DNA from: Haploplasma modicum ATCC 29102
GTDB lineage: Bacteria; Bacillota_I; Bacilli_A; Acholeplasmatales; Acholeplasmataceae
Direction of reading: 5' to 3'
Assembly: GCF_000687835.1 (NCBI RefSeq)
Contig: NZ_JHYB01000005.1
Location: forward strand, 1 to 64,000
DNA length: 64,000 nucleotides
Shown: positions 18,084 to 23,697 of the stretch, piece by piece
Numbering within the stretch: position 1 is the stretch's first letter
Layout: every line of letters starts with the position of its first letter
Program-made: the position numbers and the translations under genes
The notes under the pieces: model-generated
What the model was told of the DNA's origin: nothing
Database searches by the model: none
Seen by the model: only the letters and a program-made list of their open reading frames with translations

Positions 18084-21000
18084 CTATACTACTTCACTTA
18101 GTTTATTATCAACAATTGAATAAACAAACATTAAGATTGGTAAATCAAATATTTTACTTAAATATTTCTTATAGTTTAATAACTGATCTCTATATTTTAC
18201 TGGATCATTATTCTTTAATTTATAATCAATAATATGAACTTCATCCTTATATAGGGCTACCATATCAATTATTCCTTTAACTGAAACATTTTTATCTATA
18301 TACTCATATTCATACTCGTGATATATTTTGGCATCACTTAATTTTTTACCGTTAAATAAGTTATTTTTAAAGTTTAAATAAAACTTATCATTAATATTTT
18401 CATACTCAAATGATTCATGCATTAGTATCCCTTGTTTTAAATTATGTTTTAGCCCATCATCAATTAACTCGTTAATAGTAATTGATGCTTTACTTGATTC
18501 AATTACTTGAGACTCAATTTCAAAATTAATCTCTTCTAATTTATCTAGTTCTAGGGGATAATATGTATTTTCTTCTTTTAACTTTAAGTAATACTCAGCA
18601 TTACTTAAAGATTTTCTATATCTTGTTATATTTAATGGATTAATGAAATCATATAATCCATTAGAATAGAGATAATCTGCAAATGAATTTAATTTGCTAT
18701 AATCATCTTTCGGCGTTAAGACTAAATATAGTGCTTTTTCTGCTCTAGTTAAAGCAACATACAATAATCTTAATTCTTCTTTTAAATTATCTTTAACTGT
18801 TTTCTTTATCTTACTGTTTTTAACTGAATCATTAATTTTTAAAGTTTTTATATCACTTGGACTCTTTAAATTTAAATTAAACTTAACTACATTATTATAA
18901 TTAAAGTTTCTAACTAAAGAACGATTAAACTCATTATTTAGTCCAACGACAAATAGTGTTTCATATTCTAAACCTTTAGACTGATGAATGTTTGTAATTT
19001 TAACACTATCTTCTTTGCTGTCTTGTAAAATACTAATCTCTAAATTTAAGTCATCATTGTATGCTAAATTATAGATATATTCAACAAAATCTAATCCTGT
19101 AATATTTAAGTCTGATAAGGTCTTACTAATATTGTATAAATACTCAATTTGGTATTCTTTTTCTTTAACTTTAGTGGTTTTACTAATTTTTTTATACATA
19201 TCAAAGATATGAACCATATCGTCTATTATTTCATAATTTGATTTGGTATATATTACTCTGTTTAGTAAAAGACATTTTTCATAAATTAAATCATCAATTT
19301 CTAATTTACTATTTAGTTTATTATCAAATACTTTTGTTAATGAATTAAATAAATTATAATCACTAAAGCCAAATAACTCACTTCTTGCAACTGAGAAGTA
19401 ATAAAATCTTTTTTCACTGTTTTCCTCGTCAATTAATGAACTTAATTTTAAGACGTTTGCCATTAGTTTTAAAAAATAAGTTTGTTTTAATTTTTGATCT
19501 ACCTGAATTTGTAGTGGAATATCTAAATATTTAAATACATTTTTAAAAGTCTCAAATGATTTTTTATTTCTCGCTAGAATAGCAACTTCTTTGTAACTAT
19601 TAATTGCCTTACTATCCAATAATTCCTTAATCTTTCTCCCCACAGAAAAAGCTTCTTCTATCATTTGATTATTACTTGTTCTTTTATCTTCGCTTGTATT
19701 TAATTCTTCTAAATATACATTAGCAAACCTATTTCCCAAAAACTTAGTAGATCTACTTTCCATATAATGATTATCTTTATAATCTATATCATATTTATCT
19801 TTATCATCTAATATTTCTTTAAATAGTTTATTGACAAAGTCAATTATGCTAGATGAACTTCGGTAGTTTGCTTTTAGGGGAATACTTTTAATTGTTTCTA
19901 ATTTATTTTTAAAAGTTTCTGGTTTGGCATTTCTAAATTTATATATACTTTGTTTAATGTCACCTACATATAAAACATTTATTTTATCATTGTCTTTTAT
20001 TAACATTTCAAGAAAATCTGATTGAACTTTTGATGTATCTTGATATTCATCAACAAACACATATAAAAACTTGTCCTTTTGACGTTTTAAAAGACCTTCA
20101 TTTTCATTTAATATTTGATTTAAGAAATTAGCAATATCATTAAATTCATATTTGTTAGTTAACTTTTTAAATTCATTTAACTTTTCTTCATATCTTACTA
20201 GAATATCTAAAATGATTTTCAATGTATTAAAAGTTTCTTCCTTAAATATTTCAACATCGTTTATTGTTACATCATTTTTATATAGTTCCTTAGGATATTT
20301 AATCAATTTTTCTATCATAGATCTTTGCTCACTACTTATATTTAAATCTTTCCATTTAATATTAGTTTTTTTAATTACAGGTCTTTCTATATCTTTACCA
20401 TTTAAATAGTCATAATAGTCTAAGTAAAAATCAACTAATTCCTGATTCTCTTCAATAAAAGATAAAGAGATATCAGCTAGTTCTTCACTAAGCATCAAAC
20501 TATCAAAATAGTTTGAATCATCAATTAAGGTATTAAGTTTTAAATCTTTTATTTTACCTAATTCACATAAGTTATTATAACTCGAAAGAAAGTCTCCCTT
20601 TAAAGAATCTTCACTTTGTTTATCTGTATATGTTCTAACAAAATTATATAAACTAGGATTTCTTTCTTCATTTAACATAATATCGGTAAATATTTCATCT
20701 AAGATATCTTTCTTTATTTGATTAAAAAAGATACCATCTAATAGTTCAATGTTAGAATCAAGTCCGATTAAGCTTGCATTTTGTTTAACAAAGTTATAGG
20801 CAAAAGCATCAAAGGTTGAAATGTTTGAACTATCAATTTTATTTGCCATATTTCCTAAGTTTGCCTTAATCAATTCTTTTTTAATACGTTCTTTCATCTC
20901 ATTAGCGGCTTTTTTAGTAAAAGTCAAAACTAAAAAATTATCTAAGCTTTTTCCCTCTGTTAAAAGGTTTACAACTTTTGTTACTAAAGTTTTTGTCTTA

Positions 21001-21116
21001 CCACTTCCAGCCCCTGCAGGAACAATTAATTCCTTTGAGCTATCTAGTACTACTAAGACTTGTTCATCATTAAGACCATACGTATTAATCAAATCATCTT
21101 TAGTTTTCTTCATCAT
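18084..21116 (-). CDS. addA: AddA-type helicase/nuclease subunit
   Basis: UvrD-like superfamily 1 helicase with a C-terminal RecB-type nuclease, about 1010 residues and shorter than the roughly 1200 common in Firmicutes. Walker A is PAGAGSGKTKTLV (residues 33-45 of the frame from 21116), Walker B lies in VFVDEYQDTS, later motifs are KSIYKFRNA and LLYVALTRAEKALYLV, and the nuclease motif is GIIDMV...EVHIIDYKLKN near the end. With AddB it should resect double-strand breaks for RecA loading. A GTG six bases upstream is open, but the ATG at 21116 sits better behind AGAAGGTG. It overlaps addB by 17 bases. Confidence 0.9.
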   Translation of the reverse strand: MMKKTKDDLINTYGLNDEQVLVVLDSSKELIVPAGAGSGKTKTLVTKVVNLLTEGKSLDNFLVLTFTKKAANEMKERIKKELIKANLGNMANKIDSSNISTFDAFAYNFVKQNASLIGLDSNIELLDGIFFNQIKKDILDEIFTDIMLNEERNPSLYNFVRTYTDKQSEDSLKGDFLSSYNNLCELGKIKDLKLNTLIDDSNYFDSLMLSEELADISLSFIEENQELVDFYLDYYDYLNGKDIERPVIKKTNIKWKDLNISSEQRSMIEKLIKYPKELYKNDVTINDVEIFKEETFNTLKIILDILVRYEEKLNEFKKLTNKYEFNDIANFLNQILNENEGLLKRQKDKFLYVFVDEYQDTSKVQSDFLEMLIKDNDKINVLYVGDIKQSIYKFRNAKPETFKNKLETIKSIPLKANYRSSSSIIDFVNKLFKEILDDKDKYDIDYKDNHYMESRSTKFLGNRFANVYLEELNTSEDKRTSNNQMIEEAFSVGRKIKELLDSKAINSYKEVAILARNKKSFETFKNVFKYLDIPLQIQVDQKLKQTYFLKLMANVLKLSSLIDEENSEKRFYYFSVARSELFGFSDYNLFNSLTKVFDNKLNSKLEIDDLIYEKCLLLNRVIYTKSNYEIIDDMVHIFDMYKKISKTTKVKEKEYQIEYLYNISKTLSDLNITGLDFVEYIYNLAYNDDLNLEISILQDSKEDSVKITNIHQSKGLEYETLFVVGLNNEFNRSLVRNFNYNNVVKFNLNLKSPSDIKTLKINDSVKNSKIKKTVKDNLKEELRLLYVALTRAEKALYLVLTPKDDYSKLNSFADYLYSNGLYDFINPLNITRYRKSLSNAEYYLKLKEENTYYPLELDKLEEINFEIESQVIESSKASITINELIDDGLKHNLKQGILMHESFEYENINDKFYLNFKNNLFNGKKLSDAKIYHEYEYEYIDKNVSVKGIIDMVALYKDEVHIIDYKLKNNDPVKYRDQLLNYKKYLSKIFDLPILMFVYSIVDNKLSEVV

Positions 21117-23529
21117 TTTCACCTTCTTCTTGATTACTATTAAAAAACGCTAAGGCTTCATAAATGCTGTAGTATGATTCGTTGCGGCCTTTTTTATCAA
21201 CTAAATCTTTTCTAATTTCAATTTTAAAGTTAAAGTTTTTTATTTCCTCTAGAACCTTATTTAAAAGTTTTTCAACATCTAAAAATAGTTTTTTTAATTC
21301 TTCTTCATTTATAATTCTGGTCTCCCCTTTAATATAATAATCTAGATTTAAATCAGTAGTAGATAGTGCATTTAGTTTTGTCGAATTATAGGAAAAATAT
21401 GCTAGATCCTTCATTTTTAATTTTTCGTATTTAATGCTATAAAAATATGCGTAAAAAATTAATTGAAGTAAATCTAAATTTTTAAGCACGACTTCCTCAT
21501 TAGTATCTTTTAATAAGAGATTAATTGTTTCAATTATTTTATCCTTGTGAAATGGTTCTTTTGCACTTGATTTATAATCAATGATTGAAAAAGTATTATT
21601 CTCATATATTTTAACTAAATCTGATTGACCAATAAATTTTTCAAGTTCTACCTTTTCTTCAATTATTAATTCTTTACTAGGTATATCTTTTTCTAAATTA
21701 ACAACTACTTCTAAGGCAGCTACAATTGTATCTTGTTGTTTTTTTGTATAAAACATTGTTTTTATATACATAATATCTTTTTTTGATAAATCTTTATAGC
21801 TAATATCTTTTAGCATATTTGTATACTCTAACATCTTCTTAAAATAAATATTAAAATAATCGTTAAAGTATTTATTGTAATTGAAATTTGAAATATCAAC
21901 ATTTAAAATATAATTAATAATTTCATTGTTAATATCTATATCATCATGATAATTTTTAATTTTTCCAGTTTTACTTCTATCTACTTTAGTTTCATAAAAT
22001 ATAATCATTAAGGTCTCTACTAAACTATGGAAAAAATTACCCATTAAGGTACTAATACTTTCATTAAATATTTGAAGTCTTAAAATATTTTCAAGATAAT
22101 AAACAAATGGAATATTAAAATATTTTGTCACTTGAGAAGGACTTATTTTAGTTTTTATATCTTTCGTATAATTAATTAAAGAGTCTTTTTCTTTTTTTGT
22201 TAAATTAAAATCTGACTTGAAAGTTGATTGTAATATATCACCTGTATTTTTACTATAGTAAAGCTTGTAAAAACTAGGTGCATAACCAAAGTTAAGTTCT
22301 ATTTCGCTAGGCTCATTAGTACTTTTTATAAATTCACTTGATATATCACTTGGTGTATATGATAAGTAATTATCACTTAAAGAAAAAGAGATGTATTTAA
22401 CGGTAGAGAATTTTATTACTTCTTTTAAAAAATTATTGGCTGCAATATTTAAGTCTGAACTAGTTGGATAATTAATTAATTCTTTATCATTATCAGATAA
22501 GTAGTCATTATCTTTACTTAGCTTGGGAAAAGACTCATATACCGTATTTAAGATAAAGATATGATTAGATTCATCAAGTCCTAGTATTTCTTCATTAGAT
22601 ATTACATTAACGGCATTACTGTAAACCTTAGATTTAACTTTTAAGTTTTTAAGATCTTCTTTAATTACTTTTAAAATATTAGACGTCTTATAATTTTTTG
22701 TTGGATACTTATTAAATAGACTAATTAACTTATTAATATTTGTTTCAAAGTCTATTTTATCTTTCAAAATTTCTTTTTGATATAATTCATTACGATACGC
22801 TTCATCTTTTAATATTTGAATGATTAATTCATATTCTTTACTCATAATATCTTTAATATAAGGAATATCATTTAAATATACTTGGTTATCGTAATTAACA
22901 TTAATATTGTAAAATAACTTAAATTTATTTATTAAATTAAAATAAGTATTGTCAATATTTGAAATATAAATTTTATTAATATCAATATTTTTGTGTAATA
23001 GTTTAGCTATTTCTTCAAACAGATAAAATACTTCATCTTCTTTTGTATTAAACTTTAATGTTAATACATCTTCTTTTATCTTTTCAATATTTATATAGTT
23101 AACCTTTAGTTTGTAGTAATCAATAAATGGTTTTAATAATACGTCATTACCTAAAATATTAAAAGTATATTTTTTAATATTATCTTTAAAAAACTTATTT
23201 TCTAAAATGTATTTTTTATTAAAATCTAAAAATTTATTTAGATCATCATTTTTTTTATCTAGATTATATTTTGAAAATCTTATCTTTTCGTTAATAACTG
23301 AAAGTGGCAAATTATTTTCTTCTAAATTAAATAAATAAATTTCGTCAAGAACATCAAAAGATAAAAGATTTATTAACTCACTATAAGTGATTATCTTAAA
23401 ATCTACTAATACTTTATTAGTAAGTTCATAATTACTTTTAGATCTTATCACATTAGATTTTATTTTATCTGGAATGACAAAATAATTATTGTTATAATTT
23501 ATTTTTTTGAATATTTCATTTAATTTCAA
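21100..23529 (-). CDS. addB: AddB-like nuclease subunit, reduced, without cysteines
   Basis: An 809-residue partner of AddA, identified by position, by the C-terminal RecB-like nuclease (GNFFHSLVE with H501; EEKVELEKFIGQSDLV; IIDYKSS with D651 and K653) and by SPSQVTKYFNIPF (463-475), the counterpart of the usual SPSxLexYxxCPF. It is far below the roughly 1150 residues of Bacillus AddB. The N-terminus lacks the GxSGSGKT loop, and there is not one cysteine: I473 stands at the first Fe-S ligand, and SYYSIYEALAFF (785-796) replaces the CxxC...C cluster. The nuclease residues are intact. It may resemble RexB-type subunits more than classical AddB. Confidence 0.8.
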   Translation of the reverse strand: MKLNEIFKKINYNNNYFVIPDKIKSNVIRSKSNYELTNKVLVDFKIITYSELINLLSFDVLDEIYLFNLEENNLPLSVINEKIRFSKYNLDKKNDDLNKFLDFNKKYILENKFFKDNIKKYTFNILGNDVLLKPFIDYYKLKVNYINIEKIKEDVLTLKFNTKEDEVFYLFEEIAKLLHKNIDINKIYISNIDNTYFNLINKFKLFYNINVNYDNQVYLNDIPYIKDIMSKEYELIIQILKDEAYRNELYQKEILKDKIDFETNINKLISLFNKYPTKNYKTSNILKVIKEDLKNLKVKSKVYSNAVNVISNEEILGLDESNHIFILNTVYESFPKLSKDNDYLSDNDKELINYPTSSDLNIAANNFLKEVIKFSTVKYISFSLSDNYLSYTPSDISSEFIKSTNEPSEIELNFGYAPSFYKLYYSKNTGDILQSTFKSDFNLTKKEKDSLINYTKDIKTKISPSQVTKYFNIPFVYYLENILRLQIFNESISTLMGNFFHSLVETLMIIFYETKVDRSKTGKIKNYHDDIDINNEIINYILNVDISNFNYNKYFNDYFNIYFKKMLEYTNMLKDISYKDLSKKDIMYIKTMFYTKKQQDTIVAALEVVVNLEKDIPSKELIIEEKVELEKFIGQSDLVKIYENNTFSIIDYKSSAKEPFHKDKIIETINLLLKDTNEEVVLKNLDLLQLIFYAYFYSIKYEKLKMKDLAYFSYNSTKLNALSTTDLNLDYYIKGETRIINEEELKKLFLDVEKLLNKVLEEIKNFNFKIEIRKDLVDKKGRNESYYSIYEALAFFNSNQEEGENDEEN

Positions 23530-23655
23530 GTAAAAACACCACCCATTTTATATTAGTTTTATTATACTATAAACTAGCTAATAAATGAAGAACGCTCTTT
23601 TTAAACAAAATGATTATTTCATAAATCATTTTATTTAATTAGTATAGTCATATCA

Positions 23656-23697
23656 TAAAAAAAATAATACTCTACCCTTTAAAAGGATAGAGTATTT
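23656..23697 (-). terminator. Terminator of the FAD oxidase gene
   Basis: A long 16-bp stem (AATACTCTACCCTTTT with AAAAGGATAGAGTATT, one mismatch) is followed on the minus strand by a T run. It starts four bases past the stop of the FAD-linked oxidase. Confidence 0.9.

Follow-up and report, generated by a model that had tools for sequence, protein, structure and literature searches.

A putatively cluster-free AddB with intact nuclease motifs in a clade of the Acholeplasmataceae

The analysed DNA, hereafter the window, comprises the first 64,000 nucleotides of a contig of Haploplasma modicum ATCC 29102 (Acholeplasmataceae). An addB-like gene lies on its minus strand (21100..23529), starts with TTG and encodes 809 amino acids. 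A purine-rich stretch resembling a ribosome-binding site, gggtggtg (23537..23544, minus strand), was recognised by eye before the start codon, and a terminator-like hairpin (23666..23696, minus strand) closes the gene upstream of addB. The protein is composed of a helicase-like half (residues 1 to about 445; 22195..23529, minus strand), which was assigned by the fold match of the model and lacks a P-loop according to the P-loop survey, and a PD-(D/E)XK nuclease half (about residues 446-809; 21103..22194, minus strand), which was assigned by Pfam (PDDEXK_1, 1.8e-10), alignment and fold match. No NCBIfam model matched the protein at E up to 1. The reading frame of the partner gene addA (18084..21122, minus strand) overlaps that of addB by 23 bases. 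AddA carries the P-loop AGAGSGKT, the motif VDEYQD and the C-terminal nuclease motif GIIDMVALYKDEVHIIDYK; its best NCBIfam model is addA_Gpos (4.2e-80), at a score of 270 bits that is far below the cut-off of 707.65.

A phmmer search of the PDB with the single AddB sequence gave nothing useful (one chance match, E 0.64). When a profile built from 14 AddB relatives of the order was searched against the PDB chains, B. subtilis AddB (3u44_B) was matched at 4.9e-35 and the next chain at 0.021. For the predicted structure (mean pLDDT 81.3, pTM 0.52), the top five Foldseek matches were the five AddB chains of AddAB, and AddB chains also took the first five places in VIA-align, with Z scores of 18.8-19.9, 691-700 aligned residues and an rmsd of 13-14, which we read as probable domain shifts relative to the B. 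subtilis chains. Residues 1-410 of the model match UvrD/PcrA-type folds (Z about 15), whereas residues 456-798 match Cas4-like and Exo5 nucleases (Z 11-12). Unlike the window AddB, Cas4 and Exo5 are not known to have such a helicase-like half in front. According to the literature, Cas4, Exo5 and Dna2 keep the cluster on a staple of one plus three Cys.

Within the family, AddB was detected in nine of 88 genomes. AddA-like matches above 130 bits, in frames of 836-1113 aa, occur in the same nine genomes; the best match outside them reached 102 bits (frames of about 745 aa), and the other 79 genomes contain neither AddAB subunit at the thresholds used. Two weak AddB matches, in G137 and G150, were interpreted as different proteins and left out of the count. 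The co-occurrence of AddB with AddA is an independent argument for the identity of the protein. It has what characterises an AddB in the broad sense, i.e. the AddB fold with a helicase-like half joined to a C-terminal PD-(D/E)XK nuclease, adjacency to and co-retention with addA, and conserved catalytic residues. Absent are the features of the iron-staple AddB, namely the four Cys ligands in CPF plus CxxCx5C and the N-terminal P-loop of the long form, the latter not being a defining trait of short AddBs.

To judge which of these absences is peculiar, it is important to consider what is ordinary among AddBs. Our sample consists of 166 different AddB ORFs, almost all of them from the class, which remained from the fetched loci after removal of duplicates and of ten loci that represent fragments or other proteins (L001, L006, L008, L032, L039, L041-L045). 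The class search had yielded a match in 179 of 296 genomes, part of which were fetched, and these genomes are a sample of the class rather than the whole of it. A P-loop is located near the N-terminus in all 19 long AddBs (1123 aa or more) and in none of the 147 short ones (606-1023 aa); 19 of the 166 rows, all of them short, start at a locus or contig edge, and where the N-terminus is seen 128 of 128 have no P-loop. B. subtilis AddB has a P-loop. The initial annotation was correct in noting the missing Walker A motif of the window AddB, but as a novelty this loss had to be rejected, since the motif is gone from all 147 short AddBs sampled. The short AddB is the usual form in the sample and owes nothing to cluster loss; judged from the sequences, the cluster and the P-loop can be lost independently of each other. 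A published study describes the helicase-like domain of AddB as inactivated and as serving to scan for Chi (PMC4824097), so that a loss of the P-loop would be easy to understand. Nor have 340 residues been lost from the N-terminus, as had been proposed. In the alignment with B. subtilis AddB, residue 1 of the model falls on residue 11. The shortening is instead spread along the helicase-like half; compared with Paenibacillus AddB, it affects the P-loop segment and domain 1B as well as an internal stretch.

A similar caveat applies to the Cys content. The translation bears out that the 809 residues include no Cys at all, but little weight can be placed on this count. Cys accounts for only 0.25% of the residues of the window ORFs (45 in 17790), 14 of the 39 ORFs of 200 aa or more are Cys-free, and the expectation for 809 aa is 2.0 Cys, with a Poisson P(0) of 0.13. 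We therefore rejected the idea that a complete lack of Cys is informative in itself, as this residue is rare across the window ORFs.

The ligand positions themselves are more telling. The CPF and CxxCx5C columns of the alignment correspond to the B. subtilis protein (CPF of 3u44_B), and of 25 AddBs from the order, 21 carry a Cys at every one of the four ligand positions. In the window AddB the first ligand is replaced by the Ile of IPF (codon 473; 22111..22113, minus strand; alignment column 548), in agreement with the initial annotation. The C-terminal segment (residues 775-809; 21103..21207, minus strand) reads SYYSIYEALAFF in place of CxxCx5C. As had also been claimed, the three ligands of this region are replaced, the columns falling on S785, S788 and A794, although their exact placing in a gapped tail is uncertain. 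The tail has a pLDDT below 50 in the model; the model of the cluster-bearing control L020 is also weak in the ligand area, with a pLDDT of about 50-64. In the remaining rows of the 25, the four columns read I, S, S, A in the window AddB, I, G, S, A in G042, S, E, K, T in G021 and S, K, N, A in G051. A frame error hiding a Cys motif at the 3' end of addB was considered and rejected, as the other two frames contain no such motif.

Among the 166 sampled ORFs, 159 have all four Cys ligands (159 of the 164 with a readable C-terminus). The seven exceptions are four members of the clade of the window, L081, and two ORFs truncated by the end of their locus or contig (L067 and L147). Ligand loss is therefore unusual within the class and not the rule around this clade; within the family itself, G130, G112 and G080 keep all four ligands. 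All five cluster-free family rows fall on a single branch of a 41-row tree (SH-aLRT 100, long stem of 1.44), and this branch is joined (89) with the cluster-bearing L020 of the same family and L128 of the same order; because the tree was computed by a quick method and has long branches, the exact sister is less certain. The orthologues with intact ORFs share 44, 34 and 30% identity with the window AddB. It is a well-supported conclusion from the sequences that the AddB of this one clade is probably cluster-free, its four ligands being gone while the ORF and the nuclease motifs are kept.

G047, a genome in one contig (L006, L032 and L044), has its addB split over two ORFs in different frames, either by sequencing error or by young decay, while its addA frame is open for 1039 codons. 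The C-terminal addB ORF of this genome (g9) also lacks the ligand motif. In G144, the first 231 codons alone are in frame, near a contig end.

Known relatives differ from the window AddB to varying degrees. B. subtilis AddB (PDB 3u44, 4cej chain B) shares the helicase-like half, the C-terminal PD-(D/E)XK nuclease and the AddA partner, but has 1166 aa and four Cys ligands, compared with 809 aa and none. In Paenibacillus cellulosilyticus AddB both the ligands and the P-loop are present, and the window AddB has neither. The Enterococcus faecium homologue combines C808, C1133, C1136 and C1142 with the absence of a P-loop. The 147 short AddBs of the class resemble the window AddB in length and in lacking a P-loop; unlike it, 141 of them keep all four ligands, and the other six are the four of its clade, L081 and the contig-end cut L147. 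L081 (G204, another family of the class) encodes a cluster-free AddB in an ORF that has a normal end and precedes addA. It sits among cluster-bearing AddBs of the family it belongs to, well away from the clade of the window, and from its position in the 41-row tree two changes leading to ligand loss are needed. S. suis RexB (L199, WP_012774876.1), too, has no ligand Cys and no P-loop and is followed by addA; it belongs to a different lineage, has 1088 aa and contains one Cys, at 823. We infer that its ligands were lost independently of those in the clade of the window. A cluster-free AddB is accordingly present in the Streptococcaceae as well and is not new; the clade of the window represents a further case, in a lineage of small genomes, in which the loss was separate and convergent and was accompanied by distinct insertions and a rebuilt C-terminus. 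In the literature searched, insofar as the texts were available, there was no description of a cluster-free AddB in Acholeplasma.

The nuclease half retains its active site. H501, E624, D637, D651, K653, Q689 and Y693 are invariant in a 20-sequence alignment, including the catalytic D651-x-K653 (21571..21579, minus strand) that the initial annotation had described as intact, so that catalysis can be as in AddB. The spacing of these residues has changed. H501 and E624 are 123 positions apart (21661..22026, minus strand) versus 72 in L020; from K653 to Q689 there are 36 residues versus 18, and from Y693 to I763 there are 70 versus 108. The tail reads SIYEALAFF, SIYEALAFY or SIYEALAYF in g1 and g9, and more loosely KAFQAITFY or NVYKALAYY in g4.

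We consider it probable that the gene encodes the AddB of a working helicase-nuclease, AddAB, that processes double-strand breaks, and that the nuclease domain of this AddB has become independent of the [4Fe-4S] staple after a single loss of the ligands and a rebuilding of the domain. AddA, with its intact P-loop and nuclease, would drive unwinding, while AddB would contribute the second of the two nucleases along with a helicase-like scaffold that is inactive. Loss of the four ligands would have occurred a single time, on the stem leading to the clade to which genera g1, g4 and g9 belong. The rebuilding would have added 51 residues after motif I and 18 after motif III and removed 38 from the C-terminal arm, and the Cys-free aromatic tail (SIYEALAFF-like) may form part of it around the lost ligands. 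The AddAB complex is presumably active. Yet DNA binding and nuclease activity are impaired when the cluster is lost from B. subtilis AddAB or human DNA2, and AddAB also suffers in stability (PMC7311471); if the same applied here, the window variant could be weak.

As to what could stand in for the cluster, IPF might make hydrophobic contacts with the tail or with the inserted helices, and this packing might do the cluster's work. A metal-free clasp of hydrophobic residues would then replace the staple, the model being weak in the tail. More specifically, a purely protein clasp made of the IPF loop, the enlarged helical insert and the aromatic tail would give a compact, staple-free AddAB, a proposal that we put forward tentatively and regard as rather less likely to be right than wrong. 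Were it true, this clade, S. suis RexB and L081 would together show that AddB has dispensed on at least three separate occasions with a cluster that has been described as essential for the structural integrity of AddB and for DNA binding.

An alternative is that addB is decaying: AddAB would be in the process of being lost from the family, and the cluster went first. The lack of AddAB in 79 of the 88 family genomes, the two frames of addB in G047 and the truncated frame of G144 point in this direction, and the first two of these observations suggest that the system is dispensable in the lineage. Nevertheless, the clade has four complete ORFs with 30-44% identity in which all nuclease residues are kept, addA is always co-retained with addB, and the same rebuilt tail is common to g1 and g9. 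We regard decay as unlikely.

Even less probable is that the cluster disappeared because the lineage lost Fe-S assembly or is generally poor in Cys. The low Cys content of the window ORFs would fit such a scenario, but the genome of the window has two SUFBD_core matches and four radical-SAM matches, and SUF genes are present in 57 of the 88 family genomes. Its endonuclease III (L203:1369-2001, C3) keeps the 4Fe-4S ligands as C-x6-C-x2-C-x5-C, even though a search of the genome for the endonuclease III Fe-S loop with PF10576 was negative at E 0.001, which reflects the limit of a model of 17 positions. Thus, cluster Cys are still maintained elsewhere despite the Cys-poor window, and the three family genomes with cluster-bearing AddBs likewise speak against this scenario. 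The retention of SUF and of a 4Fe-4S endonuclease III implies that the ligand loss is specific to AddB, and a loss of Fe-S assembly was rejected as its cause. Why DNA-processing nucleases carry Fe-S clusters at all, be it for structure, for redox sensing or as a relic, is an open debate in the literature (PMC3466216). That the AddB cluster was dropped while Fe-S assembly and the 4Fe-4S endonuclease III were kept argues for a structural, replaceable role of the cluster in AddB. The window AddB and the cluster-bearing L020 and L128 represent paired natural proteins in which the role of the staple could be compared.

It is very improbable that zinc or another metal site has replaced the cluster. 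A precedent of this kind has been proposed for the E. rectale DUF3799 nuclease, but that protein keeps its four Cys (PMC3466216). In the four-row alignment of the clade there is no invariant Cys, and the sole invariant His is H501, which belongs to the nuclease motif.

The least probable scenario of all is the acquisition of a streptococcal-type RexB by transfer: the two proteins have in common that both the ligands and Walker A are missing, but the RexB model TIGR02774 finds nothing in the genome, S. suis RexB exceeds the window AddB in length by about 280 aa, and the window AddB groups with the short AddBs of its own order in a tree computed without RexB. UniProt/HAMAP divides AddB/RexB into type 1 with the cluster and type 2 without it. 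The initial annotation had conceded that its finding would not be novel if RexB-type proteins were already known to be cluster-free across this clade. S. suis RexB is indeed cluster-free, but 159 of 164 AddBs, nearly all from the class, keep their ligands. Of the cluster-free AddAB/RexAB form that it had deduced, the cluster-free AddB stands, whereas neither the short length nor the loss of Walker A is new. The RexB cut-off was exceeded in none of the 296 genomes of the class search and none of the 392 of the phylum search; the comparisons with RexB of the Lactobacillales are based on named plasmid records. In these, addAB-type gene pairs reside on small plasmids, pBM407 of S. suis (24.6 kb; L199) and pV1164-3 of E. 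faecium (21.1 kb; L200).
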